From NCBI GenBank assembly GCA_905478775.1, contig CAJQKB010000025.1, positions 1 through 46,002 on the forward strand: a DNA stretch of 46,002 bases, in the 5' to 3' direction. Below, one piece after another: positions 6,012 to 44,184 of this stretch. A program made the position numbers and the translations under genes. The notes under the pieces were generated by a model that ran no database searches, was not told the DNA's origin, and saw only the letters and a list, made by a program, of their open reading frames with translations. This stretch comes from an uncultured Opitutales bacterium (GTDB lineage Bacteria > Verrucomicrobiota > Verrucomicrobiia > Opitutales > Seribacteraceae). How positions within the stretch are numbered: the stretch's first letter is position 1; the number at the start of each line of letters is the position of its first letter.

Positions 6012-6587
6012 TTATTTGGGCTGTATGAGCAGGGTGCAGCAAGAATACTCCACCATTTGATTAGTGCAACAGTCCTTCACTTCAAAAAGTTGAATTGTCA
6101 GTATGATTAAACGATCACTCAGATCCCATGTGTCAGTCAGATAACCTCCTTCGTCATTTAGGGGAACATCATTCAAATTGGGGAAATCTCGATGTTCTCT
6201 CTTTACTCCGTATGTTTTTATTACCATTTCCCTGAGGTTTTCCCATTGAGGCTGAACCACATCTTCATAAAATGAAAATTGCCAACCTTTCTGCCCTTCA
6301 ATCAAACAAAACTTGAGCTTATCTTTTTTTAATTTTGCCGCGAGTGAATATCGGAAATTATTCAATCGAAGTGTGCATTTAACCAATTCCTTATCCCGTT
6401 CCTCGTAAATTTGTAAAAAGCCTCCCTCTCGAAGCTTTTTCATAACAACTTCGCGAGAATCCTCTTTTTTTAAACTAAAATAAACAAAATCCGTATCCAA
6501 TTTTGCAAATTGAGGAAGGTCTTTAACGCCCCCAAGCAAAGGAATTAGTTCGAATAAAAAACAAAGTAAAAAAAAGCAAGCTTTCAT
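6012..6587 (-). CDS. Small secreted protein of unknown function
   Basis: A 191-residue protein with an N-terminal hydrophobic signal sequence (ACFFLLCFLFELIPLLGG), so it is likely exported. The mature part is charged and mixed alpha/beta (VKCTLRLNNFRYSLAAKLKKDKLKFCLIEG). A cysteine-rich end (KDCCTNQMVEYSCC) could form disulfides outside the cytoplasm. No family is recognised. It stops 11 nt before the chosen ftsY start and begins 36 nt after the toroid gene at 6624, placing it inside the same minus-strand run. It may be lineage-specific. Confidence 0.65.
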   Translation of the reverse strand: MKACFFLLCFLFELIPLLGGVKDLPQFAKLDTDFVYFSLKKEDSREVVMKKLREGGFLQIYEERDKELVKCTLRLNNFRYSLAAKLKKDKLKFCLIEGQKGWQFSFYEDVVQPQWENLREMVIKTYGVKREHRDFPNLNDVPLNDEGGYLTDTWDLSDRLIILTIQLFEVKDCCTNQMVEYSCCTLLIQPK

Positions 6588-6623
6588 CGTACAATGAGTG
6601 TAATAACAGAAGAAAGGGAATAA

Positions 6624-7772
6624 TTAGAGGCTGTAATAAACTCTTTCCAAAGCAAGTAATGCATAGGAGGAAACCAAAATTGGGTCTCTTTCCCACCATC
6701 TTCCATTTTCATTCAACCAGTATCCAGCAGGATTCTGTTTATTCAATAACTCTAAAGCCAATTCTTTTCGCCAATCTTTCTTTTTTCCTTCCTTATCTAA
6801 CACAGTCTCGACTCCGCTCAAAGAAAGAGCTTTCGCCATTGTATGGTAATAATAATATAAACCTTGCTGCCCCATCCCAGGGTTTTCTGTTATATCGTAA
6901 TTTTCCTCCAACCATTTCCGAACCGCTTGTAAGCGAGGATCAGAAGTGTCCATTTCGGCGTAAATAAAGCTAAGCAATCCCGCATAACTCATGCTGCCAT
7001 AAGAGCGTAATGCTACTGAACCATTCTCCCCCTCTCTTTCCCCTGCCATACTGCTTCCTGGGAAATAAACGAACCCCCCTTTATCTTCAGCATGTTCGCT
7101 CACCCATTTTTCTTTATTCGTAGCGGATAAGTTTTGACATTTACTCACAAAAGAAATCGCGGCATCCCAATCTAAGTCTAGATTCTCACCCTCTTTAGGT
7201 TGGAGTGATTTTTTGGCATAAAAAAGAGCTTCCATCGCCAGATGGGTATTGGAAAGATCGGAATGTGCCCAACGGGATCCGTACCCTACTCCTCCATCGA
7301 ATGTATTATCCTCCACCCCTTTTTGATCAAAATCTGATTGTTGATTGATAAGAAAACGCCTCGCGGTTTGAATAATTTTCTCATATTCGGGATTCTTAGA
7401 CTGTAATAATGCCATCATGCAAATGGAGGTATTGTAACAAGCCAAGCCCTTTCCGTATATTCCTCCATCGGATTGAACCTTTGAGAGTAAAAATGAAAAG
7501 CCTTTCATTTGATTGGCAGAATATTGGGCCACAACCAACTCATCTGGATGCCCCATAGTTGCACGAAGTGCGAGAGCAGTTAAAGCAGGGTAATCTGCTT
7601 CTCCCCAATGACCTGAACTCCCGTTTTGTTCCTGGTTAAGCCACTTCACTCCCTTTCCAATGGCCCGCTCAATCTCTAATTTTATCGAGGTAGATTGATC
7701 GGCAAGTAAAGGAGTAAACCCGCAGGCAAAGAAAAATAAACTTACTCGAAAAAAACCTTTTATTGTATTCAT
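6624..7772 (-). CDS. Secreted squalene-cyclase/prenyltransferase-repeat (alpha/alpha toroid) protein
   Basis: This 382-residue protein has a signal peptide (about residues 1-24) followed by one alpha/alpha-toroid domain made of repeats of the squalene-cyclase/prenyltransferase type: AIGKGVKWLNQEQ...GHWG, NTSICMMALLQ, GGVGYGSRWAHSDLSNTHLAMEALF, and a closing QNPAGYWLNENGRWW segment. The catalytic DxDD motif of squalene-hopene cyclase is absent; the aligned position reads AHSDLSN. It is therefore more likely a binding or scaffold domain than a terpene cyclase. Three other toroid proteins are encoded in this window; unlike the two at 8649 and 10239 this one has no membrane-anchor module. It sits between a YdjY-domain gene and a small secreted protein. 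Confidence 0.85.
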   Translation of the reverse strand: MNTIKGFFRVSLFFFACGFTPLLADQSTSIKLEIERAIGKGVKWLNQEQNGSSGHWGEADYPALTALALRATMGHPDELVVAQYSANQMKGFSFLLSKVQSDGGIYGKGLACYNTSICMMALLQSKNPEYEKIIQTARRFLINQQSDFDQKGVEDNTFDGGVGYGSRWAHSDLSNTHLAMEALFYAKKSLQPKEGENLDLDWDAAISFVSKCQNLSATNKEKWVSEHAEDKGGFVYFPGSSMAGEREGENGSVALRSYGSMSYAGLLSFIYAEMDTSDPRLQAVRKWLEENYDITENPGMGQQGLYYYYHTMAKALSLSGVETVLDKEGKKKDWRKELALELLNKQNPAGYWLNENGRWWERDPILVSSYALLALERVYYSL

Positions 7773-7802
7773 AATTTATCTTCTAAAAATAACTCAAAAC
7801 CT

Positions 7803-8513
7803 TTATTGAGGCAAGTGGAAGCGAATCAAAACAGGCAATTCCAAAGGAGGCATCTCTTGCTTATTTGCGATCCATACATCGTCATTCGAGCTATCGTAGT
7901 CACTGTTATTCATAACGGCACTTTCATCGGCGTAGATCGCAAGAATAGAACCCGAAGATTCCGCCAAAAAAGTTCCTTCTATCATTTTGGAACCGGTAAA
8001 AATAAATGATTTCTTTTCTATCGGTCCATTTCTATTCTGGTTAATCGATAATTTCTCTATTTCTTTTTCATAATTTGTTCCGTTTATTTCCCACGAAACT
8101 AAAATTTCAAAGCAATTCTCAGAATAATCGATGGATTTTGGATCATCACTCCATAAATTCTGAAAGAAGCCTTCGACGGGCTTGAACTTGAGAAGCAAGA
8201 GCGAGGTGTGAAAAATTTGCGGTCTTACTGAAGTACGAAAGAGGGATTCATGAATCTTTCCATCTTCATGAACCACCCCATACTCTACCAGCCCATTGAC
8301 TTGATTTGAAATTGCAGGAATTGAAACAGAATTGGATTTACGATCAATTATAATCCCGCCGAAATCATAAATTCCCTCTTTTACTTTTTTGATCGCCGGT
8401 AAATTACTGGCATTATCCTCCGCAATTAATGAATTCGAAGAAGCCACTGTAAAAAATAAAATAGTAATTAAAAAATTTCTACCAAAACTAAAGTTTGAAA
8501 AAAGTGTTACCAT
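7803..8513 (-). CDS. Secreted YdjY-domain protein
   Basis: A 236-residue exported protein: signal peptide about residues 1-31 (NFLITILFFTVASSNSLIAED), then a domain whose core VNGLVEYGVVHEDGKIHESLFRT matches the YdjY-type pattern (EY-hs-GKxHESLx-T), known in PVC and Planctomycetes secreted proteins but without an established biochemical role. I chose ATG at 8513. The longer frame from 8606 would put 31 non-conserved residues before the signal peptide. It is the first gene of the minus-strand run and is divergent from the toroid gene at 8649, with 135 nt between them that must carry both promoters. It ends 30 nt before the secreted toroid gene. Confidence 0.8.
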   Translation of the reverse strand: MVTLFSNFSFGRNFLITILFFTVASSNSLIAEDNASNLPAIKKVKEGIYDFGGIIIDRKSNSVSIPAISNQVNGLVEYGVVHEDGKIHESLFRTSVRPQIFHTSLLLLKFKPVEGFFQNLWSDDPKSIDYSENCFEILVSWEINGTNYEKEIEKLSINQNRNGPIEKKSFIFTGSKMIEGTFLAESSGSILAIYADESAVMNNSDYDSSNDDVWIANKQEMPPLELPVLIRFHLPQ

Positions 8514-8648
8514 CTTGCTAACAACATAATTTAAGTGTGCTCGGTTCAAAAGGAAAGAATTTAATAGAAATAAATATTCCTGCATACTTGACCTTATCCC
8601 ATTCATGTTTCATGTTGAAAATGCTCTTTTTTATATATTTTTACAATT

Positions 8649-10196
8649 ATGGACCAAGAAGAAGTTTACCCCGAAGAAAACCAAATCCCTCAAGAAGAGT
8701 ATCTCGAGGAACAACAAACTGTTTCGGTTGCACCTCCCCTTGAAGGAGCTTTTAGCAAGTACATGCGCGAGTATCGACTACTCAATAGCCTCCTCGTTTC
8801 TTTACTTATGCTGACCATTATAATGTCTTCCATTTGGGGGATGATGATGGGACTCGCACTCAGTGGGGAAGGGAATTCCGATTTTTCCGACGGAGGTACG
8901 GCTCCTGCCGCACAAAAACAGGAAAAACAAAAAGTGGTCAAACTGATGCAAAGACAGAAAAAAGCACAACCCACTACCCAGCAAACTTTTCGAACCACCG
9001 CCATTTCTGACATTACACTACCCGACTTTAATGAATTGGATGTGAAGGATTTAGCCCCAGTGGTTGAAGCCGCTGCCCCCACGATGTCCGCCGCAGGCAT
9101 GAATAACGATAAAATGACAAAAGCGATGGCGGGTATTGGATTGGCTTTGCCCAAAACGATGCAACAACGTTGTGACCCCAAGAAACGAATCGCCCGATTA
9201 AAATCGGGGGGCGGGAAAACAATGACGGAAACCGCAATCGTCAAAGGCCTCAACTGGCTTAAGGCAACACAGAGCGAAGATGGTTCTTGGGGAGCAAAAG
9301 ATAAAGATGAAGCAGGAAAGCCCATCAAGGCGGACGCTCATCACAAAAAAGCAATGACAGGAATGGCTCTTCTTTGTTACCTCGGTCATTGTGAGCTTCA
9401 AGATTCCCCCGACTTTGGCCCCACCGTACAAAAGGCGATAAAATATATTACCTCCATGCCTCCCGACGAACCCGTGGGAGCAGGAAACCGTGGTTCCTAT
9501 TCGCACCCTATTCGTACCTATGCTCTGTGCGAAGCTTACACGATGACCAAGATTAAAAAATTGGAAATTTATGCAAAACGGGCTGCCGAACTTGTAATTA
9601 AGGGACAAAATGAAAATGGTGGGTGGGCCTATGCATACGGAAAAGGCCCAGCGGCTCACACAGATTTATCTGTTGCGGGATGGAATATCCAAGCACTCAA
9701 AGCAGCGGCATACACCGGAATTGAAATCAGTGGATTAGATGAGGCGATGGATAAAGCGATTAAATATGTCAAAGAATGCCAGGACAAGGCGGGTAAGTTT
9801 GCTTATCAAAGAGGAAAGGGAGGAAAAGCCAGTCTTACCGGAACGGGAGTCCTTTCCCTGCAAATATGGAAAAATGCCAAGTCAGAAGAAGCCGAAAAAG
9901 GTCTTGAATGGATTGTACAGAATGAAGCGGTGATTACAGAATGGAGTAAGGTCGATGTGTATGGCTGGTATTACAACGCACAAGCCTGTTTCCAAGCAAC
10001 CGGCGTATCAGGAGGTTCCAAATTCTGGAAAGCGTGGAATAAGGATTTTCAAAAAACAGTTACTTCCAACCAAGCAGCAGACGGACATTGGCCCCATGGT
10101 AACCATTTTCATGGTGACTCGGATGTATACCGAACAACCATGGCTATTTTGATGCTTGAAGTTTACTATCGGTACATGCCCACGACGAAAGTTTAA
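8649..10196 (+). CDS. Membrane-anchored toroid protein, copy 1
   Basis: A 515-residue protein with three parts. Residues 1-44 are an acidic cytoplasmic tail ending in FSKYMREYRLLN. Residues 45-71 are a single transmembrane helix. Residues 72-190 are a linker with a basic Gln/Lys patch (KLMQRQKKAQPTTQQ) and an SDITLPDFNELD strand. Residues about 191-510 are a squalene-cyclase-type alpha/alpha toroid with QSEDGSWG, QNENGGWAY and QAADGHWPHG repeats. The topology is probably N-in with the toroid in the periplasm. The cyclase DxDD motif is missing (AAHTDLSVAGW instead), so binding rather than catalysis is likely. The tail-helix-linker plan recalls TonB-like and ExbD-associated anchors of PVC bacteria. 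A near copy follows 42 nt downstream. No Shine-Dalgarno precedes the ATG. Confidence 0.85.
   Translation: MDQEEVYPEENQIPQEEYLEEQQTVSVAPPLEGAFSKYMREYRLLNSLLVSLLMLTIIMSSIWGMMMGLALSGEGNSDFSDGGTAPAAQKQEKQKVVKLMQRQKKAQPTTQQTFRTTAISDITLPDFNELDVKDLAPVVEAAAPTMSAAGMNNDKMTKAMAGIGLALPKTMQQRCDPKKRIARLKSGGGKTMTETAIVKGLNWLKATQSEDGSWGAKDKDEAGKPIKADAHHKKAMTGMALLCYLGHCELQDSPDFGPTVQKAIKYITSMPPDEPVGAGNRGSYSHPIRTYALCEAYTMTKIKKLEIYAKRAAELVIKGQNENGGWAYAYGKGPAAHTDLSVAGWNIQALKAAAYTGIEISGLDEAMDKAIKYVKECQDKAGKFAYQRGKGGKASLTGTGVLSLQIWKNAKSEEAEKGLEWIVQNEAVITEWSKVDVYGWYYNAQACFQATGVSGGSKFWKAWNKDFQKTVTSNQAADGHWPHGNHFHGDSDVYRTTMAILMLEVYYRYMPTTKV
8903..9227 (+). repeat. Near-identical segment of the tandem toroid genes, left copy
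   Basis: Compared by eye with 10493-10817 (offset 1590), this stretch differs at four positions only: 9065, 9143, 9194 and 9209, all synonymous. Flanking parts of the two genes differ at many synonymous sites. It covers the linker between the membrane helix and the toroid domain. Confidence 0.85.
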
Positions 10197-10238
10197 ATTC
10201 TTATTGTAAACTAATTACGGTTTTGATTACTTGGTCAC

Positions 10239-11771
10239 ATGGACCAAGAAGAAGTTTACCCCGAAGAAAACCAAACTCCCCAAGAAGATTATTTAGAGGA
10301 TCATCAATCCGTTACGGTTGCACCTCCCCTCGAAGGTGCTTTTAGTAAGTACATGCGCGAGTATCGCTTACTCAATAGCCTCCTTGTTTCTTTGCTTATG
10401 CTGACCATTATAATGTCATCCATTTGGGGAATGATGATGGGACTCGCACTGAGCGGGGAAGGGAGTTCCGACTTTTCCGACGGAGGTACAGCACCTGCCG
10501 CACAAAAACAGGAAAAACAAAAAGTGGTCAAACTGATGCAAAGACAGAAAAAAGCACAACCCACTACCCAGCAAACTTTTCGAACCACCGCCATTTCTGA
10601 CATTACACTACCCGACTTTAATGAATTGGATGTGAAGGATTTAGCCCCAGTGGTCGAAGCCGCTGCCCCCACGATGTCCGCCGCAGGCATGAATAACGAT
10701 AAAATGACAAAAGCGATGGCGGGTATTGGATTAGCTTTGCCCAAAACGATGCAACAACGTTGTGACCCCAAGAAACGAATCGCTCGATTAAAATCGGGAG
10801 GCGGGAAAACAATGACCGAAGCGGCTATTGTGAAAGGTCTAAAATGGTTGCAAACAACTCAAGACCCCGAAGGGTCATGGGGAGGAAAAGATAAGGATGA
10901 GAAAGGAAACCCAAAACCTTCAGATAAAAATGCGATGACCGGAATGGCTTTATTATGCTACCTCGGACACTGCGAGTTGCAGGATTCTCCCGATTATGGG
11001 GAAACCGTTCAAAAAGCAATCAAGTTCATCACCTCCACCACCCCCGAACCCAAGATTGATCAAAGGGGGTCTTATTCTCATCCAATCCGCACTTATGCTC
11101 TGTGCGAAGCTTACACCATGACTAAGATCAAGAGACTCGAAGAGTTTGCGAAGAGAGCGACCATACATATTATCAATGGACAAAATGAAAATGGGGGTTG
11201 GGCTTACAGTTACGGAAAAGGCCCAGCGGCTCACACAGATTTATCTGTAGCGGGGTGGAATATCCAAGCTCTAAAAGCAGCTGCTTATACCGGAATTGAA
11301 ATTAGCGGATTAGATGAGGCAATGGATAAGGCAATCAAATATGTTAAGGAATGTCAGGATAAAACAGGTAGATTTGCCTATCAAAGAGGCAAAACAGGTA
11401 AATCGAGTCTCACCGGAACTGGTATCCTCTCGCTTCAAATTTGGAAAAATGCGAAGTCAGAAGAAGCCAAAAAAGGGCTTGAATGGATTGTCCAAAATGA
11501 AGCAATTAAAAAAGATTGGAGTAGCATTAATGTTTACGGTTGGTACTACCATGCACAGGCTTGCTTTCAGGCAACCGGAATATCAGGAGGTTCCAAATTT
11601 TGGAAAGCCTGGAACAAAGATTTTCAGAAAACCGTTTGCTCTAACCAAGCGGACGACGGTCATTGGAAACATGGAGCCCACTTTCATGGAGATACTGAGA
11701 TTTACCGTACAACCATGGCAATCCTAATGCTCGAAGTCTATTATCGCTACATGCCTACCACAAAGGTATAG
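10239..11771 (+). CDS. Membrane-anchored toroid protein, copy 2
   Basis: A 510-residue paralogue of the preceding gene with the same order: acidic cytoplasmic tail, membrane helix at about 45-71, basic Gln/Lys linker, then an alpha/alpha toroid with QDPEGSWG, QNENGGWAY and QADDGHWKHG repeats. The linker is almost identical to copy 1 at both protein and DNA level. The toroid domain has diverged, with a 4-residue-shorter loop after the first repeat and many substitutions, though the last 20 or so residues (YRTTMAILMLEVYYRYMPTTKV) match. The tail differs at several residues around position 16-25. The start follows 42 nt without a terminator, so both are probably one transcript. This looks like a duplication in which the two toroids specialised while the anchor is kept identical. 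Confidence 0.85.
   Translation: MDQEEVYPEENQTPQEDYLEDHQSVTVAPPLEGAFSKYMREYRLLNSLLVSLLMLTIIMSSIWGMMMGLALSGEGSSDFSDGGTAPAAQKQEKQKVVKLMQRQKKAQPTTQQTFRTTAISDITLPDFNELDVKDLAPVVEAAAPTMSAAGMNNDKMTKAMAGIGLALPKTMQQRCDPKKRIARLKSGGGKTMTEAAIVKGLKWLQTTQDPEGSWGGKDKDEKGNPKPSDKNAMTGMALLCYLGHCELQDSPDYGETVQKAIKFITSTTPEPKIDQRGSYSHPIRTYALCEAYTMTKIKRLEEFAKRATIHIINGQNENGGWAYSYGKGPAAHTDLSVAGWNIQALKAAAYTGIEISGLDEAMDKAIKYVKECQDKTGRFAYQRGKTGKSSLTGTGILSLQIWKNAKSEEAKKGLEWIVQNEAIKKDWSSINVYGWYYHAQACFQATGISGGSKFWKAWNKDFQKTVCSNQADDGHWKHGAHFHGDTEIYRTTMAILMLEVYYRYMPTTKV
10493..10817 (+). repeat. Near-identical segment of the tandem toroid genes, right copy
   Basis: Partner of 8903-9227; the two stretches align without gaps and show four synonymous differences by eye. 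Confidence 0.85.
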
Positions 11772-11811
11772 CGATTATTGAGTTAATCCTAACTAATTTC
11801 ACTCTCCCAAC

Positions 11812-11840
11812 TTGCATAGTAAGGAGTTGCTGTATATATA
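11812..11840 (+). promoter_or_regulatory. Candidate sigma70-type promoter of the azurin gene
   Basis: TTGCAT at 11812-11817 and TATATA at 11835-11840 are separated by 17 nt. The predicted transcription start lies at about 11847-11848, which is the azurin ATG itself, so the mRNA would be leaderless. An AAGGAG at 11821-11826 lies inside the spacer, too far from the ATG to be its ribosome-binding site. Confidence 0.5.
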
Positions 11841-11847
11841 AACTTTT

Positions 11848-12303
11848 ATGAAAAGATTGTTCCTATCAACTCTCCTATTCTTTCACGCCTTCGGTTTCGC
11901 ATTTGCCGAGAAAAAAGCGGAGAAGGAAATTACTATTTCAGGAAATGACACCATGCAATTTGATGTCAAAAATTTTAATGTTACCGCAGGGGAAAAAGTA
12001 AAAATTATTTTTAAAAATTCGGGTCAACTTCCGAAAATTGCGATGGGACACAACTTGGTACTCCTCAAAAAAGGTGTTTCCGCAATTGCTTTTGGTCAAA
12101 AAGCATTGGGTGCTGGTGCGAACGCAGTAAATCCCCTTCCCGATTCTCTCAAAGGTGATGTGATTGCCAGCACAAAATTATTAGGCCCCGGTGAACAAGA
12201 TGTTGTTTCTTTCACTGCTCCCAAAGAAAAAGGTGCATATGAGTATGTTTGTACTTTCCCCGGTCACTTCGCGATGATGCGGGGTACTATGACAGTCAAA
12301 TAA
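11848..12303 (+). CDS. Azurin-type blue copper protein
   Basis: A 151-residue periplasmic cupredoxin that carries electrons through a type 1 copper site. It has a signal peptide (residues 1-20, ending FAFA). The azurin ligands are all present: His68 in MGHNLVLL, then Cys135, His140 and Met144 in YVCTFPGHFAMMRG, with the same 5 and 9 residue spacing from the Cys as in Pseudomonas azurin. The gene stands alone between the toroid genes and the Nramp-like gene; no denitrification or cytochrome genes adjoin it, so the redox partner is unknown. Its promoter suggests a leaderless transcript. Confidence 0.93.
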   Translation: MKRLFLSTLLFFHAFGFAFAEKKAEKEITISGNDTMQFDVKNFNVTAGEKVKIIFKNSGQLPKIAMGHNLVLLKKGVSAIAFGQKALGAGANAVNPLPDSLKGDVIASTKLLGPGEQDVVSFTAPKEKGAYEYVCTFPGHFAMMRGTMTVK

Positions 12304-12348
12304 CCGATACTTTCAGTTTTTTTAAGTTATTTGCCCATTATTGACTTC

Positions 12349-12377
12349 TTGACAATTTAGTCCAAGAACGAGATACC
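12349..12377 (+). promoter_or_regulatory. Candidate promoter of the Nramp-like gene
   Basis: A perfect TTGACA (12349-12354) is followed after 17 nt by GATACC (12372-12377), a weak match to TATAAT, then 6 nt to the ATG at 12384. If used, the transcript would start at or next to the start codon. The weak -10 keeps confidence low. Confidence 0.35.
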
Positions 12378-12383
12378 AAGGGT

Positions 12384-14120
12384 ATGTCGATCGAACAAGA
12401 GAAAAAATTACTTAAAGATGCTGAAGCCAAAGGGCTTTACTCGTGCCTAGCAACATATACTAAACTTTCCGGGCCAGGATGGCTCCAAAGTGCAATAACA
12501 CTTGGAGGTGGATCACTTGCATCCAGTTTATTCTTGGGAGTTTTAGCTGGATACTCACTGCTATGGCTCCAGCCTATCGCGATTATATTGGGTATCATCA
12601 TGCTGTGTGCGATTAGTCATGTAACCCTTTCAACCGGACAAAGCCCATTTGTTTCGATTAATAACGAAATCAACCCTGTACTAGGTTGGGGGTGGGCAAT
12701 CGCAACCATCCTGGCAAATATTGTCTGGTGTTTACCGCAATTTTCATTGGGAACTGCAGCAGTGACGCAAAACCTCTTCCCTATTCTTGATAACACAGGA
12801 GGGAAAGTGCTCGTAGTTTTATCCATCCTCATCACGGCATGCATAATCATCTGGGCTTACGATCGAGGAAGCAAAGGAGTTAAACTATTTGATTTAATTC
12901 TTAAAATCATGGTTGCACTCGTGGTTCTTTCCTTTTTTGGAGTAGTAATCAGCATGGGTGTTGCAGGCGAATTACCTTGGAACGAAATTGCGGCGGGCTT
13001 TATTCCAAACTTCTCGCTTTTTTATGAACCTGCGGAAGTCTACTCTCCTTTTCTAGAAGGGACTGGCGAATTTCGTTCCTTTTGGGAAAATAAAATCATA
13101 AATTTACAAAAAGATGTGATGATTGCAGCAGCTGCAACTGCAGTAGGAATCAACATGACATTCTTTATGCCTTTTGTTCTTCTTAGCCGAAAATGGGGAA
13201 GAGAACATAGAGGCCTTGCTAAATTTGATTTATGGACTGCCCTTCTTATTCCCTATGTGGTAGCAACCTCCTGCGTTGTGATTGCAGCCGGCACACAGTT
13301 TAACGGAAAACCAGAGTCTGCCTACGAAGATTATGAAAACAGAGTACTGCGCTCTAATTTGGCCAAGGGATATAATGCATTTATTACCGAAAGGCTCGAA
13401 CTAGAATTAGGCGAAGAAAAATTTGCAAGCTTAGCTCCTGTTCAAAAAAAGGAACTGGGCTCAACCATCCCAGAATCCGACAAACAAATTGCTGCGATGC
13501 TCGTAAAACGGGATGCCCGTGACTTGGCTGAATCCCTGAAATCATTAACGGCAAATGATACCTTGTCCCAAATTATTTTTGGAATCGGAGTAGTCGGTAT
13601 GGCTCTGTCCACTATTATTATTCTAATGACAATCAATGGTCATGCGATCTGCGAAGTATTAGGAAAACCTCATAAGGGACCTGTATTTTTAGGAGGAGCA
13701 TACATTGCCGGGATCGGAGTACTAGGTCCCTTTGTTTGGAGCGACGCTGCTTTTTGGCTCGCGGTTCCGACATCAATCCTCGGATTTACTCTAATACCTG
13801 TAGCGTATCTCAGTTTCTTTTTGTTGATTAACAGTAAAAAGGTATTAGGGAGAGAAAGACCCAAAGGATTAGGGCGAGTTATATGGAATATAGGCTTGAT
13901 CCTGTCACTTGGTATTATGGGTACAGCCGCATTTTATGTTGCCTGGAATAAAAGTTGGGGGGATATACAATTTGGTCGAATTGCACTGATTGGCTTTGGT
14001 ATCCTCCTTCTAATTGGACACTTTGGGCTCCAAAATAAAAAACTTCTTAAAAAAACGGAAGCGATGGATCTCAAGTTTCAACAATTAAAAAAGAAATTAG
14101 ATTCTATTAAAACTAATTAG
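12384..14120 (+). CDS. Nramp-related (LeuT-fold) membrane transporter with altered metal site
   Basis: A 578-residue protein with about 11-12 membrane helices. The first helix aligns with Nramp helix 1: GPGWLQSAITLGGGSLASSL stands where metal-transporting Nramps have GPG...DPGN, so the metal-binding Asp and Asn appear as Gly and Ser. The helix 6 region (INMTFFMPFVLLSRKWGREHRGL) keeps the Met-Pro of the Nramp MPH motif but not the His. About 85 charged residues are inserted between later helices (around YEDYENRVLRSNLAKG...KSLTANDTL), larger than in typical Nramps. The fold assignment is fairly sure. The substrate is not; it could be a divergent divalent-metal carrier or something else. It follows the azurin gene by 80 nt and has its own possible promoter. 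Confidence 0.78.
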   Translation: MSIEQEKKLLKDAEAKGLYSCLATYTKLSGPGWLQSAITLGGGSLASSLFLGVLAGYSLLWLQPIAIILGIIMLCAISHVTLSTGQSPFVSINNEINPVLGWGWAIATILANIVWCLPQFSLGTAAVTQNLFPILDNTGGKVLVVLSILITACIIIWAYDRGSKGVKLFDLILKIMVALVVLSFFGVVISMGVAGELPWNEIAAGFIPNFSLFYEPAEVYSPFLEGTGEFRSFWENKIINLQKDVMIAAAATAVGINMTFFMPFVLLSRKWGREHRGLAKFDLWTALLIPYVVATSCVVIAAGTQFNGKPESAYEDYENRVLRSNLAKGYNAFITERLELELGEEKFASLAPVQKKELGSTIPESDKQIAAMLVKRDARDLAESLKSLTANDTLSQIIFGIGVVGMALSTIIILMTINGHAICEVLGKPHKGPVFLGGAYIAGIGVLGPFVWSDAAFWLAVPTSILGFTLIPVAYLSFFLLINSKKVLGRERPKGLGRVIWNIGLILSLGIMGTAAFYVAWNKSWGDIQFGRIALIGFGILLLIGHFGLQNKKLLKKTEAMDLKFQQLKKKLDSIKTN

Positions 14121-14137
14121 AATTAAAAAATTTACTC

Positions 14138-14488
14138 CTATCGAGAGGCAGGTTTTTGGGTTTCTAACGGTACCCATTTTCTCTGCTCACCGTTCGATCC
14201 AATTTTAGAGGCCAAAACCCAAGCTTCTCCAGTTGTGGTATCGAACTTGACCAGCCGTTTATATAAAAATGGTTTCGCATCTTCAGAATAATACTCAGCA
14301 CTTACAATCTGGTATTTTCCACTCTTACTTGAAAGAGAAGCAAAGCTGGGCGGAGGGGGAATATTCATTGGTAAGCTTGGCCTTATGGAAGGCGAAAGTG
14401 CAGGTGGAGAAGATTGCCCCGCTACATGAAAGTAAGTTCCGCACAATGCAATACAGGGCATAAGAATACATTTTAATAATTGTTTCAT
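14138..14488 (-). CDS. Small exported protein, unknown function
   Basis: A 116-residue protein from ATG at 14488: signal sequence (LLKCILMPCIALCGTYFHVAGQ), a proline-rich linker (SIRPSLPMNIPPPPS), then a small beta domain (YQIVSAEYY...KRLVKFDTTTGEAWVLA) whose FDTTTGEAW pattern resembles short secreted domains that report a value with its use in a table-like repeat; no function is known. An upstream ATG at 14521 adds eleven residues before the signal peptide and is less likely. It converges on the Nramp-like gene with 17 nt between stops and no visible terminator. Confidence 0.65.
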   Translation of the reverse strand: MKQLLKCILMPCIALCGTYFHVAGQSSPPALSPSIRPSLPMNIPPPPSFASLSSKSGKYQIVSAEYYSEDAKPFLYKRLVKFDTTTGEAWVLASKIGSNGEQRKWVPLETQKPASR

Positions 14489-14987
14489 TCCTAATCTATC
14501 TAGAATTAAAGTAACAAACATTCAACCTTAGTTGTAAAATTTTTAAGCTTAGATGGGCTGACTGAAGCCGTAGGATGAATCAAGCGGCAGGCAATGAACC
14601 AAAAAAAGCCGTCGACCTTGCCCAAGTCGACGGCCAATTTTATAATTGAGCGTATCGCCCAATTAATCCGTGCTTACGATTAACATGAATGAAAACCCTA
14701 GCTAGATCAAAAGGAAAAGTTATCTTTTTAGTTTTTTTAGTATTAAAACTACTTCAATGTCAGGTACATTAAGGTTTAATAGAATAGTACACTAATTAGG
14801 CTATATGGAGATAATACCAATTTAATAAAAGCGGAATAACTTAGCACTGCGGGGCAAAAACCACCTAAAGTAACCAAGTTATCTTCAATAGGAGTTAGAA
14901 TATGGAAAGAGAATATCGAAATTGGCTCACTTAGTAGCAGGTACCTTGATCAAGAGTGTAGTTTATCCGTATGTATTCTGTAGAAAT
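14489..14987. other. AT-rich gap of about 500 nt with a strong hairpin near its left part
   Basis: No coding frame with convincing codon pattern is visible on either strand. The only structure is the pair of hairpins at 14608-14634 and 14644-14664, described separately. The remainder (14665-14987) is AT-rich with short homopolymers and no recognised RNA. Confidence 0.5.
14601..14634 (-). terminator. Rho-independent terminator on the minus strand
   Basis: A perfect 9-bp stem (GCCGTCGAC / GTCGACGGC, 14608-14616 and 14626-14634) with a 9-nt loop is followed on the minus strand by seven U residues (14607-14601). A second hairpin lies just upstream on that strand (14664-14644, AATTG-G-GCG over CGC-T-CAATT, closed by one G-U pair). 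It could end transcription from the small gene at 14988-15200 or from an unannotated small RNA. Confidence 0.7.
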
Positions 14988-15682: not shown

Positions 15683-16720
15683 ATGGTAAGCAAAACTCCA
15701 CCCAATAAAAAAACTGAGGTACTTTCTGAAAATGATGTTCAATCAATCAGCGACCTAAAAGATACTTTCTCTGCAATCAAAAACGAGCTTGGTAAAGTCA
15801 TTATTGGGCAAGAAGATGCTATTGAACGGATCTTTCTTTGCATGCTTTCCAAAGGACATTCACTTCTTATGGGAGTGCCCGGTTTAGCCAAAACCCTTCT
15901 CGTCAATTCCATTGCCCAGGTAACTTCATTATCTTTTGGACGGATTCAATTTACTCCCGACCTTATGCCCTCAGATGTTACCGGCACCGAGATTCTACAA
16001 AATAAAAAAGAGGGAGAAGGAAGGGAATTTGCTTTCATCAAGGGTCCCATTTTTGCCAATGTAATCCTCGCGGACGAGATTAACAGAACGCCCCCCAAGA
16101 CTCAGTCTGCTTTACTGGAGGCAATGCAGGAGAAAAGAGTTACCGTTGCGGGAACCAATCATCAACTCCAAGAACCCTTCTTCGTTCTCGCCACCCAAAA
16201 CCCAATCGAACAAGAAGGAACATACCCACTTCCCGAAGCCCAATTGGACCGTTTCATGTTTCTTATTCAAATGGATTACCCGACTAGAAATGAAGAAATA
16301 GCAATCGCCAAGCACACCACTATTGGGTCCCTACCCAAGCTTAAGAAGATCATTTCTGGTAAGAAACTCAAGGAATTCCAGCAACTTGTTGAGCGCGTCC
16401 CCGTACCCGATCATGTCCACGAACTGGCAGTCGACTTGGTTCGCAGAACGAGACCCAACTCCGATGAATCTCCAGCCTGGTTAAAGAAGTTGGTTCAATG
16501 GGGTGCCGGACCACGAGCCGTTCAGTATCTAGTAAAGGGAGCAAAGGCACGGGCCGTCCTCGAGGGCAATTATATGACCTCCATGGAGGATGTCGAAAAA
16601 GTGGCCAACCCCGTTCTTTCTCACCGGATTCTTACTAATTTCCATGCCCGTTCCGAAGGTATGAACAGTACAGAAGTAGTGGCCCGATTAATCGAAGACG
16701 CAAGAAAAGAACAAAGATAA
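15683..16720 (+). CDS. MoxR-family AAA+ ATPase
   Basis: A 345-residue cytoplasmic AAA+ ATPase of the MoxR type, a chaperone-like family that typically acts on VWA partners. Walker A is GVPGLAKT (residues 64-71), Walker B ILADEINR (128-135) with the following TPPKTQSALLEAMQE, sensor 1 is ATQNP (160-164), and the arginine-finger region reads QLDRFMF. The C-terminal helical lid contains RTRPNSDESPAW and GPRAVQYL. It opens the operon and ends 3 nt before the DUF58 gene. A short frame (ATG at 15666, stop 15687-15689) overlaps the chosen ATG; one extra A in the run at 15669-15675 would join it in frame and give a slightly longer N-terminus. Confidence 0.94.
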   Translation: MVSKTPPNKKTEVLSENDVQSISDLKDTFSAIKNELGKVIIGQEDAIERIFLCMLSKGHSLLMGVPGLAKTLLVNSIAQVTSLSFGRIQFTPDLMPSDVTGTEILQNKKEGEGREFAFIKGPIFANVILADEINRTPPKTQSALLEAMQEKRVTVAGTNHQLQEPFFVLATQNPIEQEGTYPLPEAQLDRFMFLIQMDYPTRNEEIAIAKHTTIGSLPKLKKIISGKKLKEFQQLVERVPVPDHVHELAVDLVRRTRPNSDESPAWLKKLVQWGAGPRAVQYLVKGAKARAVLEGNYMTSMEDVEKVANPVLSHRILTNFHARSEGMNSTEVVARLIEDARKEQR

Positions 16721-16723
16721 AGG

Positions 16724-17632
16724 ATGGGAAGACGCAAAAAGAGCTACTCTCATTACGTCGATCAAGATTCTCTCTCCCGGATTTCCGGAGAACCACTACT
16801 TACGCCCTTCTCCATGGAGGGAAGTATATCCGGACACCATCGAAGTCCCCATAAAGGATCCAGCGTAGAATTTGCAGAGTATCGGGAGTACACCGAGGGA
16901 GAGGATCCAAAAAGGATGGACTGGCGGGTGTTTGCCAGGACCGATCGTTATTATCTCAAGGAGTACGAAGCCGAAACAAACCTGAGAGCTCACTTTGCTC
17001 TCGACTGCAGCGGTTCGATGAATTTCGGGGATAGCATAAGCAAATTTGAATTTTCAAAAAAACTGCTAAGCACACTCGCATACCTTTATGTCGGTCAGGG
17101 AGATGCGGTGGGACTACACACTATCCGAGACCGAAAAACCCAGGTTTTACCCGCCAAAAGAAACCCTTCTCAAATTCAGGAAATCCTGGAAATTATTGGT
17201 CCCCTCAAACCAAAAGGCGAAACTCGCCTGGCTGCTTCACTTCATGAGATTGCCGAGACCGTACGGATGCGTGCCACGATCTTCGTGGTTTCCGATATGC
17301 TTGATGAACCAGAAGAAATTATCGATGCTGTCCTCCATCTTCGAGACCGCAAGCACGAGGTAGTGCTCTTTCATGTATTCGATCCCCAGGAACTTAACTT
17401 TACCTTTGACCGACCAACCCGGTTTGTGGACATGGAGGGAGGAGGTTCCCTTATTACCGAACCGACTGTTATCCGGGAGGAATATCTCGCCCGTTTAAAC
17501 GCTCATGTCGATCAACTTGAAAAGGGTTGCCTGGAATCTCAGGCCCGCTATCACCAAGTTCACACGGACAGTCCAATGGTTACAGTAATTGATAATTTTT
17601 CGGCCCACCGTATTAGTGGCAAGACAGCATGA
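16724..17632 (+). CDS. DUF58 domain protein
   Basis: A 302-residue soluble protein of the DUF58 family, a VWA-like fold that nearly always accompanies MoxR. The signature GSSVEFAEYREYTEGEDPKRMDWRVFARTDRYYLKEYEAETN spans about residues 45-88 and is followed by the degenerate MIDAS segment LDCSGSMNF. Unlike Alphaproteobacterial long versions it has no membrane helix. It follows moxR by 3 nt and overlaps the BatA-type gene by 4 nt (ATGA), indicating translational coupling. It probably links the ATPase to the membrane VWA proteins. Confidence 0.92.
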   Translation: MGRRKKSYSHYVDQDSLSRISGEPLLTPFSMEGSISGHHRSPHKGSSVEFAEYREYTEGEDPKRMDWRVFARTDRYYLKEYEAETNLRAHFALDCSGSMNFGDSISKFEFSKKLLSTLAYLYVGQGDAVGLHTIRDRKTQVLPAKRNPSQIQEILEIIGPLKPKGETRLAASLHEIAETVRMRATIFVVSDMLDEPEEIIDAVLHLRDRKHEVVLFHVFDPQELNFTFDRPTRFVDMEGGGSLITEPTVIREEYLARLNAHVDQLEKGCLESQARYHQVHTDSPMVTVIDNFSAHRISGKTA

Positions 17633-19593
17633 CTTTCCTTCAACCAATTGCCCTCCTTGGGCTCTTATTGGCTTTCGCCCCGATAATCATTCATCTCCTG
17701 AATCTTCTCAGACACCGAACCGTGCCTTGGGCAGCCACCCGCTTCCTTTTCCAAGCCCGAAAGAGTTCTTCGCGTCTATCGAAACTGAAAAGATGGCTCA
17801 TCCTTCTTGTAAGAGTACTGGCCTTAGCAGCCCTCGCTTTCATGATCGCTCGACCTATGACGGGAGGTGACTCCCTTTTCTCCCTTTCCAATGGCAGCCC
17901 GGAAGTACTTGTCCTGGTTCTCGACAGATCCGCGAGTATGGAAACAACTACGGATAAGGATTCCCTGACCAAAAGACAGAAAGCACTCGAAGCCTTTCAA
18001 TCCTTCGCAAGACCATGGACAGAAAGCCGCCTTGTGGTTCTCGACTCCGCACTGGAGGAACCTTTTTTTATTGATCGTGCTGATTCCTTCAAAGACGAAG
18101 CCCTCCAGCGGTTTTTCGGACCGACCGATACAGCGGCTGATCTGCCCGGTACCCTCTCGAAGACCTTGGATTGGTTAAAGGAATCAGGAGTTGGAACAGC
18201 CGAGATTCTCGTAGTCTCCGACATGCAAAGCAGTAACTGGGAGCTTGAGCGGAATGCCGATATCATGAGAAAAATAAATCGGACACTTTCTGAAAAGAAG
18301 GATTTTTGGAAACTGACTTTTCTGAACATGGCAGACCCACCACCCTACAACTTCAGTGTGACAGTAGATCAAGTTAATCGAATGCCCAACAAGGTTGAAC
18401 CAGTCTTGAACTTGCGGAAAAAAGGACGAGGAAAAGAGGAAGTTCGATTGACTACCCGAATGAATGGTAAATCCGATCTACTGGAAGTTGAATTGGTATC
18501 CCAAAGCGTACTGTGGCGCCCTACCTTTGACCTTAAAAATGAACCGGAGGAAGGATGGATTTCAATCCTCAGTCCAGACGATTTTTGCCAATCTGACAAC
18601 ATCTGCTATCTCACCTATGGCTCTACCGAACCACCGCAGGTTGCGGTACGGGCTTCCAATCCAAGAACCAGCCTAATTCTTCGTTCGGCATCTCAAACCG
18701 AACAAGGTGAACTCCCTGATCCTCTCCCCTTAAGCGGTTTCGGAGAGAAGGACTTACTTTCCAGAAAGATTCTCATTCATCAAGGGGAAATCAATTCGAA
18801 GGTGGAGACAGTACTCGAGGAATTTGTCATTAAGGGAGGAAGCCTTGTTCTTTTTCCACCCGAGGTAACAAGTTCGGATGGTTCCAAATTACTTTCCTGG
18901 AATTCCCTGGAGGAAAAGTTGGAAGATGAAATTTTTCAAGTCAGCAACTGGAGGGAAGATTCTGGACTCCTTACCAATTCATCGGACGGCAACCGGCTAC
19001 CCCTCGACCGCCTTGCAATCAAAAGACGCAGAACTCCCCAACAAGGAGAGACCCTGGCCTACTATTCCGATGGCAAGCCTTTCCTCTCCTGTCTGACTCT
19101 CGGGAAAGGGATTGTCTATTTCTTTTCAACCCTTCCTCTAGATAGTTGGTCGAGTATGTCCGATGGCTATGTCCTCGTCCCTGCCCTACAGCGACTGATC
19201 GAGGAGTCCTCCTCCTCCAACTCCTTTATCCAATCGTGGTTCTGCGGAGAGAAGGAATCTAAAGAATCTATTTTATTTGAACCGATTGGAGATGCAAAAG
19301 ACAAGGTTCCCTATCTCCATGCGGGAATCTACAGGGTTAATGGAAGGCTCACTGCGATCAACCGTCCCAAGAGCGAAAATGACACCTTATTCCTGACAGT
19401 AGAACAAATCCTCGAGAAACTCCCGAATATTTCCCCCCGCCTGTTAGAAGACGAGTCTTCCTCCGCTTCAAATGACCGGTCGGAAGCCTGGTCCTTTTTT
19501 CTGACCCTTTGCCTCATCCTGCTTTTGGGGGAGGCATTGTTAGGTCAACCGGCATTGGCCCATGAAAACAAGGCCATTTCGATCAATGCTTGA
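17629..19593 (+). CDS. BatA-type membrane VWA protein
   Basis: A 654-residue inner-membrane protein. It begins with the BatA N-terminal domain (LQPIALLGLLLAFAPIIIHLLNL, helix at 3-27, with the RTVPWAATRFL that follows), a second helix at about 57-75, then a VWA domain whose MIDAS begins at Asp99 (DRSASM). The central part (about 230-560) is predicted extracytoplasmic and beta-rich. A C-terminal helix (WSFFLTLCLILLLGEALLG) closes it. BatA-like proteins in Bacteroidetes act with MoxR in stress tolerance or virulence; here the role is unknown. It overlaps DUF58 by 4 nt and the next gene by 8 nt. Confidence 0.88.
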   Translation: MTFLQPIALLGLLLAFAPIIIHLLNLLRHRTVPWAATRFLFQARKSSSRLSKLKRWLILLVRVLALAALAFMIARPMTGGDSLFSLSNGSPEVLVLVLDRSASMETTTDKDSLTKRQKALEAFQSFARPWTESRLVVLDSALEEPFFIDRADSFKDEALQRFFGPTDTAADLPGTLSKTLDWLKESGVGTAEILVVSDMQSSNWELERNADIMRKINRTLSEKKDFWKLTFLNMADPPPYNFSVTVDQVNRMPNKVEPVLNLRKKGRGKEEVRLTTRMNGKSDLLEVELVSQSVLWRPTFDLKNEPEEGWISILSPDDFCQSDNICYLTYGSTEPPQVAVRASNPRTSLILRSASQTEQGELPDPLPLSGFGEKDLLSRKILIHQGEINSKVETVLEEFVIKGGSLVLFPPEVTSSDGSKLLSWNSLEEKLEDEIFQVSNWREDSGLLTNSSDGNRLPLDRLAIKRRRTPQQGETLAYYSDGKPFLSCLTLGKGIVYFFSTLPLDSWSSMSDGYVLVPALQRLIEESSSSNSFIQSWFCGEKESKESILFEPIGDAKDKVPYLHAGIYRVNGRLTAINRPKSENDTLFLTVEQILEKLPNISPRLLEDESSSASNDRSEAWSFFLTLCLILLLGEALLGQPALAHENKAISINA

Positions 19594-21769: not shown

Positions 21770-21773
21770 CAAG

Positions 21774-24700: not shown

Positions 24701-24887
24701 CGGAAAATCAGGAGGAGGTTCGAACCAAGGAGGAACGAGTGACCGCGAACTTGGTGAAAACGCAGGTGAAGTCCTAAACTTACCTAAAGACTCCCGGAAA
24801 TCTAAGAAAAGCGGTGGGATGTCCCAATCCCCTCCCCCTGAGTTCAAAAAAATTATGGAAAATTATTTTAGGAGTATAGAAGAATGA
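21774..24887 (+). CDS. Large membrane coiled-coil protein (DUF4175-like) of the MoxR operon
   Basis: A 1037-residue protein with membrane helices at about 41-61, 71-90 and 169-189. A long extracytoplasmic part follows: an Ig-like beta-rich section (about 200-520), then long charged helices predicted to form coiled coils (about 520-800, repeated EQLEREAISEL, ELQEILADSSEQLDRLEAL). A Gly/Ser/Gln-rich stretch (SPSGSGSGQGQGEGMGKE) lies near 810, and a Gly-rich tail follows. The layout is that of the DUF4175-type proteins which accompany MoxR-VWA genes in PVC and other bacteria. No activity is known; a tether or scaffold across the periplasm is plausible. It overlaps the toroid gene by 4 nt. Confidence 0.82.
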   Translation: MNELNRQSRELPQAMRNDSLPSSLIESLTNLKKLSRKIFSIKFGSLLLVSLCISWLGLFISDRLWDTPIGVRLLVSCSGWLGAILFAWMIRRNAFLKSTSPQWLARQVRAKFGGPGDRFLGIIELAEKRNTDSPHYSESLYKAALQRVEKEISHLSLSETFDQQPVRRAGVAAILCLFATLACFYTYPGLALNASMRWASPWSNLQRKTLTRFSEVPSTLYITKGETSTLRLTLADDSEKKPDEIQLNGANALTLKADRKDNLYKFLIPGQQKTRRLKLKAGDYRGEITLVPLARPSIVVSQATVSYPQYLALSDYRTDAFTKLVSFPIGSDLIIKGQTDRELSNVTASSDTGPLDSEKSKDSFLIRLNDVEEDQSVEIGFIDQFGLKPKQNHFIDLLALPDAPPTVNISKLPPESSILLFETKTLEIMAKDDFGVAESRLKMKAIRGNDLLIESTLYVQTEKESNLTVTNFNFPFDPRLFTLQDGDIAEFSAQVLDRMPGRELSSSRTVRFFIVGPEKHAQLIRENMEAIISRTSEIAREQESLLMETIEIEELVEDSKESLDPKTEQKLSKLADMQRTNSRNLRNNAEEGMKVLEEAARNPVFDQEALEDFGETLEKMKGVASTKMSPASSKMNLAQVSNPSSASESLAEAEQLEREAISELQEILADSSEQLDRLEALNFAQRLRKVEQTEKNLTKGILKILPASIGANIELLTPKVSKEKDRMEMLQFDTHLEAGEIQKEISRFHERTGTKVYGEVSKLMDKEKTESGLLMVSHKIERNVAFEAMDALELWEEKFKVWADMLDAQISPSGSGSGQGQGEGMGKEITEQILALLRIRDGQGDIIKKTQVVDSGNFKAKRENWTNTLNDQQLELMLDLTDVQIELAKESLNPLFDDTHTAMSESAIGLKKGEAGEITQKAQTQSKEIITDLINLILETNNSPQSSTQGLSITAMQFLMQQLGQGGEGKAPVMTAGKSGGGSNQGGTSDRELGENAGEVLNLPKDSRKSKKSGGMSQSPPPEFKKIMENYFRSIEE

Positions 24888-43110: not shown

Positions 43111-44184
43111 TCAGTTGTTTTGACCTTTGTCATCAATTTCTTTTTCCATCAATCTAATTTCATCCATATCGACAAATTTACTTTTACCTCCCGTCATTGC
43201 TGCAATTTCCTCAAGGGGTAATTTGGCACCAGCAGGAGCACCGTATCCTATCGTATAAATTTTAGTACGTCCCTTTTTCTTTTTTATAATATCAACTCCT
43301 TGAAATTCCTTTTTCGAGGAACCATCTGTCATGAAATAAATAACATCCGGCTTGGGGTTCATGTAAAAAGCCCATTCGAAAGAATTATCCCATACAGTCC
43401 CAAGGGTAAGCGGCGTATCATGAACTGCCTTGATTAGTTTCTTTTTAACAGAAGGAGTAACGGGTGACCACTTGGGTCGAACTGGATTATATCCATCATT
43501 AGCTTTCCATCCGGAACCGTTAGATCCACTCCAATTTTTATGCAATGCATTGGCATCTTCTCCTGCTACCCAAGTAGGTCCGGAAAAAAAGATAACCGAC
43601 ACGGAACCCACAGCAGGCAGTTTTTCAATTGCTTTACTTAACTCGCTTCTCATCACTTTGTCTCGCCCCCTCATCGAAGCGGAATAATCAATAATGAAGA
43701 GAATCTTATTTGCTTTAGACTTCACTCCCATAAAATTAGATGCAAAGGCTTTGTTAAGAACGGACATATCCACATTCACACTCACATCGCCCATGTTTCC
43801 CATTGGGCTCATGGCAATTGCAGGATTAAGGGATTGTGTTTCAATATCAACAATCGGAGCAGCAATTTCTGAAATGGCCTTAGCTTGAAAAGTAAACTTC
43901 TGTGATGGCTTTGCCTGCTTTTGCCTCTGCATTAATCTAACTTTTTGCTCCTGCTTCTTGGGTGCCGTGGTGGGTTGTCCGGCATCCGAAAAATCTGATC
44001 CCGCATCGTCACTAAGAGGAAGACCCATCATCATGTTCCAAAAAATAGAAAATGTGCAGACCATAAAAAAGAGAGCGAGAAGCAAACTGTTAAGTAATCG
44101 GTAATCCCGTAAATACTTAGAGAAGGCACTTTCCAAAGGGACTGTTTCCTGGCGTAGTGTTTCCGTTATCTCTAAGTCGGTCAT
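43111..44184 (-). CDS. Membrane-anchored VWA protein sharing the toroid anchor module
   Basis: A 357-residue protein. Residues 1-35 are a cytoplasmic tail; FSKYLRDYRLLNSL leads into a membrane helix (about 33-55). A linker follows (SDFSDAG, KKQEQKVRLMQRQKQAKPSQKFTF, AISEIAAP). A VWA domain (about 160-350) begins LFIIDYSASM with MIDAS Asp166, Ser168 and Ser170, and continues with IYFMTDGSS. The tail, helix and linker match those of the toroid proteins at 8649 and 10239 closely. VWA domains bind ligands or partners through a metal ion. It is followed 3 nt later by the ThuA-like gene. Confidence 0.87.
   Translation of the reverse strand: MTDLEITETLRQETVPLESAFSKYLRDYRLLNSLLLALFFMVCTFSIFWNMMMGLPLSDDAGSDFSDAGQPTTAPKKQEQKVRLMQRQKQAKPSQKFTFQAKAISEIAAPIVDIETQSLNPAIAMSPMGNMGDVSVNVDMSVLNKAFASNFMGVKSKANKILFIIDYSASMRGRDKVMRSELSKAIEKLPAVGSVSVIFFSGPTWVAGEDANALHKNWSGSNGSGWKANDGYNPVRPKWSPVTPSVKKKLIKAVHDTPLTLGTVWDNSFEWAFYMNPKPDVIYFMTDGSSKKEFQGVDIIKKKKGRTKIYTIGYGAPAGAKLPLEEIAAMTGGKSKFVDMDEIRLMEKEIDDKGQNN

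Follow-up and report, generated by a model that had tools for sequence, protein, structure and literature searches.

A membrane-anchor module common to toroid and VWA proteins of an Opitutales bacterium, and its possible docking on an ExbB-ExbD-ExbD motor

Why should proteins with quite different periplasmic heads carry the same membrane anchor, and does a common partner recognize it? The question is raised by 46,002 nucleotides of DNA from an uncultured Opitutales bacterium (assembly GCA_905478775.1, contig CAJQKB010000025.1), referred to here as the window, in which two tandem genes for anchored alpha-toroid proteins lie 31 kb from a gene on the opposite strand for an anchored VWA protein. 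The nearest named relatives of this genome are marine Opitutales/Opitutia (Verrucomicrobiota). A sequence-only reading had noticed the common anchor and the 31 kb distance and had suggested a shared partner, perhaps an ExbB/ExbD motor; the anchor and the distance are borne out, as all three open reading frames (ORFs) and every motif that it quoted are present at the coordinates given below. We propose, at a probability of about 70%, that all three proteins act as TonB/TolA-type transducers in the inner membrane, with a motor-docking module in common and differences only in the periplasmic head. The features concerned are as follows, with structures predicted by AlphaFold2 (AF2) and their confidence given as predicted local distance difference test (pLDDT) values.

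8649..10196, plus strand: anchored toroid protein 1, 515 aa; ORF with Pfam matches to SQHop_cyclase_C (2.4e-9) and Prenyltrans (4e-8), AF2 alpha-toroid at residues ~190-508
8781..8861, plus strand: transmembrane helix of the shared anchor, toroid 1, residues 45-71, from hydropathy; AF2 helix at 34-71
8862..9098, plus strand: shared linker, toroid 1, residues 72-150, KVVKLMQRQKKA...TFRTTAISDITLPD, from alignment; pLDDT < 50 at residues 68-188
9204..10172, plus strand: alpha/alpha-toroid head, toroid 1, residues 186-508, from Pfam and AF2/fold match
10239..11771, plus strand: anchored toroid protein 2, 510 aa, tandem paralogue of toroid 1, from ORF, Pfam and alignment
10371..10451, plus strand: transmembrane helix of the shared anchor, toroid 2, from hydropathy
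10452..10688, plus strand: shared linker, toroid 2, from alignment
43111..44184, minus strand: anchored VWA protein, 357 aa, with complete metal-ion-dependent adhesion site (MIDAS), from ORF, Pfam and AF2/Foldseek VWA fold, e.g. BatB 3ibs
44017..44094, minus strand: transmembrane helix of the shared anchor, VWA protein, residues 31-56, from alignment and hydropathy
43789..44016, minus strand: shared linker, VWA protein, VRLMQRQKQAKP...TFQAKAISEI, from alignment; covaries with the first ExbD of the G000:C57 operon (see below)
43135..43713, minus strand: VWA head, residues 158-350, from Pfam and AF2/Foldseek

The module consists of the N-terminal helix and a basic linker, that is the first ~150 residues, and is homologous across the three proteins. 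Aligned from EGAFSKY to AISDI, the two toroids are 99% identical, and toroid and VWA protein are 48% identical over 119 columns with a local score of 272; 500 shuffles averaged 38 and never exceeded 70. Run on the whole genome, a profile of the module matches these three proteins (E 2e-72, 3e-72 and 1e-62) and no other place up to E = 1. The likeness is therefore not an effect of composition, and the shuffles and the genome-wide search together reject chance as its source. The toroid and VWA copies have diverged at the DNA level, and therefore do not stem from a recent duplication. The tandem toroid genes are 99–100% identical at bases ~270–540 and ~70% identical beyond, and it looks as if the anchor part in their 5' halves has been homogenised by gene conversion. 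Contigs of several relatives break off inside the module, probably because of the same repeat.

All three proteins have a single N-terminal transmembrane helix by hydropathy and AF2, and the linker is predicted to be disordered (pLDDT < 50 at residues 68–188 of the toroid and 56–157 of the VWA protein). Pfam gives only toroid (PF13243/PF00432, E 2e-9 and 4e-8) or VWA (PF13768, E 1e-6) heads, and no TonB/TolA C-terminal domain is found in the three. The MIDAS of the VWA protein comprises DYSAS at 166, a T within the stretch DTPLTLGT and TDG at 286. The toroid head matches the folds of squalene-hopene cyclases and GH76-type (alpha/alpha) barrels, and is like the squalene-hopene cyclase/prenyltransferase toroids in fold and repeat family, but the window heads are single toroids tethered to the inner membrane, and both lack the catalytic DxDD motif of squalene-hopene cyclase, on which ground a terpene-cyclase enzyme is rejected. 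Against NCBIfam the toroid and VWA proteins give weak, sub-threshold matches and the motor-adjacent transducer at locus L373 gives none; a VWA profile compared with sequences of solved structures returned irrelevant chains only.

In what follows, families, genera, genomes, loci and contigs are labelled f, g, G, L and C respectively; f1 is the GTDB family of the window, G000 its genome, and the window is G000:C25. The module is confined to f1, where it occurs in 37 genomes, and is absent from the other sampled families (92 relatives). Its full-length carriers are 33 toroid proteins, 27 VWA proteins and 3 of a third kind with a sub-threshold DUF2135 signature (E 0.015–0.024). Toroid or VWA heads thus make up 60 of 63, the excess over other domains that the sequence-only reading had called for, and restriction of the module to few head types is a lineage-specific rule. 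At L082 the gene for a DUF2135-like protein on the shared anchor (6928–7713, minus strand) lies two genes away from that of a bacterial alpha-2-macroglobulin of 1787 aa (9470–14833, plus strand).

The anchors group by lineage and not by head. Toroid and VWA anchors score 266 against each other within f1 and 250 within f18, whereas between these families toroid anchors score only 70 and VWA anchors 69. In the anchor tree the toroid and VWA anchors of f18 fall together (97/98), the f1 anchors of all heads are grouped with weaker support (94/77), and a single clade of all toroid anchors is rejected (approximately unbiased test, p = 7e-7). The toroid domains of f1 and f18 are sisters with a support of only 86/75, so that one old fusion with anchors evolving in concert, or two separate fusions in f1 and f18, are both possible. 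Different heads on a single anchor within one genome are seen in four further cases: f18, f44 and g110 of f29 (toroid and VWA), and g101 (toroids and PA14). The toroid and VWA anchors of the f44 genome G392 are 87% identical, whereas the toroids of two f44 genomes are 59% identical; the two anchors of g110 are 55% identical, and three tandem toroids of g101 have an anchor in common with a PA14 protein at 33% identity. Between lineages the anchors are 20–33% identical. The PA14-domain protein of g101 (L458–L462), a genus that at a guess is Akkermansia, is a candidate sugar-binding head.

In each of three f1 clades, derived residues of the same kind stand in the same columns of the toroid and VWA anchors (6, 4 and 4 such columns; p <= 5e-4 by permutation). 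The clade of the window reads WGMMMGLALS in the toroid and WNMMMGLPLS in the VWA protein, where WNIVVYVAA and WNIVVWVAP are found elsewhere. With VWA-domain distance removed, toroid and VWA helix distances correlate at a partial r of 0.90 and the linkers at 0.66. Codon sharing between toroid and VWA modules is 0.389 within a genome versus 0.382 between clades; codons no more alike within a genome argue against recent gene conversion between the two, which is rejected on this test.

The VWA homologues of other families (35–42% identity) point to a motor. They have an N-terminal TonB-type helix, mostly with an SxxxH motif, and after it an acidic/proline-rich linker; the SxxxH histidine is the residue by which TonB and TolA contact their motors. 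The operon order in f2, f8, f10, f20 and f22 is TPR, a ~380 aa protein, ExbB, ExbD, ExbD, (VOC) and a protein with transmembrane helix (TMH) and VWA domain. The transducer gene stands behind ExbB-ExbD-ExbD in all 11 operons sampled from these families, with a helix histidine in each of the 11 proteins and SxxxH in 9, and is lacking in the one f16 operon. In f1 (0/10) and f18 (0/3) the orthologous operon, identified by its VOC gene and the shared upstream genes, has no transducer gene, with the VOC gene beside ExbD retained; going by this gene order, the transducer gene has left the motor operon in f1 and f18. The VOC (glyoxalase-fold) gene is conserved beside the second ExbD in several families, whether or not the transducer is there (L279 6292–6678, L365, L371, L373 and others). 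A profile of the f1 anchors matches the motor-adjacent transducers of other families at E 1.5e-8 to 9e-5 when run on the ORFs of those loci, and at E 2e-6 to 7e-5 genome-wide, and hhalign of f1 anchors with the transducer anchors of other families gives a probability of 97% (E 4e-11, 87 columns). The genome of the window has this operon on another contig, G000:C57:

Locus L279: motor operon, TPR-TPR-412 aa-ExbB-ExbD-ExbD-VOC, with no transducer gene of its own
7602-8447: ExbB
7162-7572 and 6702-7157: ExbD, two genes
6292-6678: VOC

The NCBIfam scores of these motor genes are TolQ/TolR-like. The first ExbD (ExbD1) is present in 40 of 42 f1 genomes, counting G036 and G038, where the matches are weak or partial and the bins incomplete; the two genomes with no match are 60–70% complete, and four copies are at only 47–49% identity. 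Within f1, ExbD1 distances follow those of the VWA linker with VWA-domain distance held constant (partial r 0.81, 0/5000 permutations; 0.85 in the genus), whereas in the same test four neighbours of the VWA gene reach 0.01, 0.20, 0.22 and -0.02. Compared with their sister G003, the genomes G002, G007, G010 and G022 differ by 56–59% in ExbD, 35–45% in the linker and 8–13% in the VWA domain, and the linker of G014 is 39% changed as against 8% in G004. We take the covariation as moderate support for docking of the VWA linker on the motor, and as weak support for docking of the toroid linker. The suggestion of a shared, perhaps ExbB/ExbD, partner is thus supported by comparison: relatives of both kinds of protein behind ExbB-ExbD-ExbD, homologous anchors and the covariation of VWA linker and ExbD speak for it, but there is no ExbB/ExbD near the window genes, and the likely motor is on C57.

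Toroids are also found with motors outside f1. A sample of 289 genomes from the whole phylum has relatives of the toroid domain in 127 (E <= 1e-25), mostly as ORFs of 490–550 aa, and 13 of the 20 toroid loci examined, from ten families, have a contiguous ExbB-ExbD-ExbD-toroid arrangement; the helix has SxxxH or AxxxH in 14 of the 20. Pairs of proteins of 800–1050 aa with PD40 propeller and toroid stand directly behind ExbB-ExbD in f1 relatives and f18 (L318, L319, L323, L325); by their make-up these are a different type of toroid, and another combination of toroid and motor. A further cluster in the genome of the window (L320, 3906–11920 of G000:C90) has a MotA/ExbB-like gene, two small membrane proteins, an Ig/TSP3 protein and a toroid protein 45% identical to the window toroid, and is possibly a second motor-toroid system.

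Our best reading is that the window proteins are orphan force transducers, similar to TonB/TolA, that work on one motor. A proton motor of the TolQ/TolR (ExbB-ExbD-ExbD') type, encoded on C57, would hold the anchor helix at its rim, while the periplasmic domains of ExbD hold the linker; proton flow would pull or move the linker, and a partner in the outer membrane or cell wall would receive the force from the head. By analogy with TonB and TolA, ExbB is the expected seat of the helix and the ExbD pair that of the linker, with the head transmitting force. The VWA head, having a complete MIDAS, could grip a protein ligand via its metal ion, and the toroid head, at a guess, would be a binding or clamp domain. 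In f1 and f18 the transducer would have left the motor operon and lost the TonB-type histidine, and its anchor would have spread to several heads (VWA, toroid, DUF2135-like). The shared anchor, the restricted heads, the operon orthology, the lineage-wise co-evolution of anchors and the linker-ExbD covariation are established at the level of sequence, and we infer physical docking, force transmission and ligands. The wider proposal of a Verrucomicrobiota platform, in which one ExbB-ExbD-ExbD' motor is combined with a docking module specific to the lineage and with exchangeable heads (VWA, alpha-toroid, PA14, DUF2135-like), and the toroid is an unrecognised type of transducer, seems to us slightly favoured.

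These proteins are like the TonB-ExbB-ExbD and TolA-TolQ-TolR systems in the type of motor and in the TonB-like SxxxH helix of their relatives, and unlike them in having VWA, toroid, PA14 or DUF2135-like heads in place of the TonB/TolA C-terminal domain, and no histidine in the window proteins. Several TonB paralogues working on a shared ExbBD is a known arrangement.

A parallel is offered by the TMH-vWA force transducers described from PVC bacteria, which have a disordered linker after the helix, a predicted beta-strand 'motor box' and, in many members, an SHLS motif, and whose genes often follow a TPR gene, a tolQ-like gene and two tolR-like genes (Williams-Jones et al. 2025, Mol Biol Evol, PMC12204202). 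The window VWA protein has the N-terminal helix, the long disordered linker and the VWA head, and the same operon plan is seen in 11 of 12 operons from other families of the order; however, it lacks the SHLS histidine and, as throughout f1 and f18, the synteny with TPR and tolQ/tolR-like genes, for which reason we do not file it as a strict member. Its anchor is also found under toroid and DUF2135-like heads, and the two toroids have no VWA domain. The VWA protein is a derived relative, descended from this class. A second vWA family, with a trans-pore helix containing a conserved Asp and tolQ without tolR (PMC12204202), does not fit, as the f1 helix has no Asp and the presumed motor has two ExbD genes. 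The words 'toroid' and 'squalene' are absent from the text of PMC12204202, which mentions neither PA14/DUF2135-like heads nor anchor sharing, and no report of toroid transducers or shared-anchor sets was found in the literature searched, most subscription journals lying outside the search. The view that no such system had been named therefore holds for the toroid half and for the anchor sharing, but for the VWA half the class was named in 2025 (PMC12204202).

A number of observations weigh against motor docking in f1. Every f1 helix is without His, and the SxxxH histidine is missing in f1, f18 and g101 alike, which makes docking without it the weakest step; f44 has it in a shared toroid/VWA anchor, and a shared anchor can thus go with motor docking. 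As published, the 'motor box' is a beta strand; the linker has the conserved segments VKLMQRQKKA and AISDI, but AF2 shows a low-confidence helix in this region (toroid 88–105, VWA 80–88). No ExbB/ExbD neighbour was found around the module genes in the f1 loci examined, so direct gene linkage to the motor is rejected there, and as the genome of the window also holds several other ExbB/ExbD loci, we can only infer the motor partner. The covariation of ExbD1 with the VWA linker is carried mainly by two events, the G002/G007/G010/G022 group and G014; the toroid linker shows weak covariation (partial r 0.49, p 0.04), and G002 has an undiverged toroid linker (6% changed) beside a diverged motor ExbD. 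Several g2 genomes have the toroids and no VWA protein.

Some of these points would also be expected if the module were a plain membrane anchor, spacer or sorting tag from a TonB-like ancestor that, its histidine lost and the motor uncoupled, now only displays periplasmic domains, with conservation perhaps due to a non-motor partner. The missing histidine of f1, f18 and g101 and the unlinked motor genes of f1 favour this explanation, which we nevertheless hold to be unlikely, as a mere tether needs no lineage-wise matching of helix and linker between heads and would not covary with ExbD of an unlinked operon, and as the f44 shared anchor retains its histidine. It is rather less probable still that gene conversion or repeated domain swapping maintains the likeness with no selection by a common partner. 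The tandem toroids clearly convert their 5' halves, the adjacent changed columns of the window clade (MMMGL.L) could be one tract, and the toroid fusions of f1 and f18 could be independent given their modest joint support; but synonymous codons are equally alike within and between genomes, the matching changes of the other two clades are scattered along the module, and conversion does not explain the covariation with ExbD. Repeated swaps onto one anchor would in any case imply that the anchor matters.

We give very little weight to the idea that the toroid and VWA proteins belong to the MoxR/Bat-type cluster between them, whose products the anchor would recruit. Such a cluster, with its own VWA and toroid, does lie within the window, but these VWA and toroid proteins are without the module, the relatives in other families accompany ExbB/ExbD, and in most relatives the toroid and VWA genes are on separate contigs, or 34–46 kb apart where one contig holds both. 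Bat/MoxR-associated VWA proteins (BatA, BatB) are likewise membrane-anchored with a MIDAS, and BatB 3ibs is among the fold matches; they differ in anchor and gene context, and the window has its own such cluster elsewhere.

This Bat-like cluster (15683–25879, plus strand) runs MoxR, DUF58, two VWA membrane proteins, a 1037 aa protein and a secreted toroid protein, and is situated between the anchored toroid and VWA loci. On the minus strand at 6624–8606, oriented divergently to the anchored toroid genes, are genes for a YdjY-domain protein (NF040466, 8e-31) and a secreted toroid protein. This divergent pair is retained at the toroid loci of f1 (31/33 and 29/33 loci respectively), and its products are possible partners of the toroid head; the VWA loci of f1 retain DUF1501 and often ThuA.

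The set of envelope force transducers (TonB, TolA, vWA) would gain a toroid-headed class, and with it a handle on the function of many proteins annotated 'prenyltransferase/squalene oxidase repeat'. The loss of the TonB histidine with co-evolution retained would be a natural experiment on the docking of transducers to proton motors. That several heads share one docking module is a simple and directly testable rule, by which one motor may work several interchangeable envelope tools.

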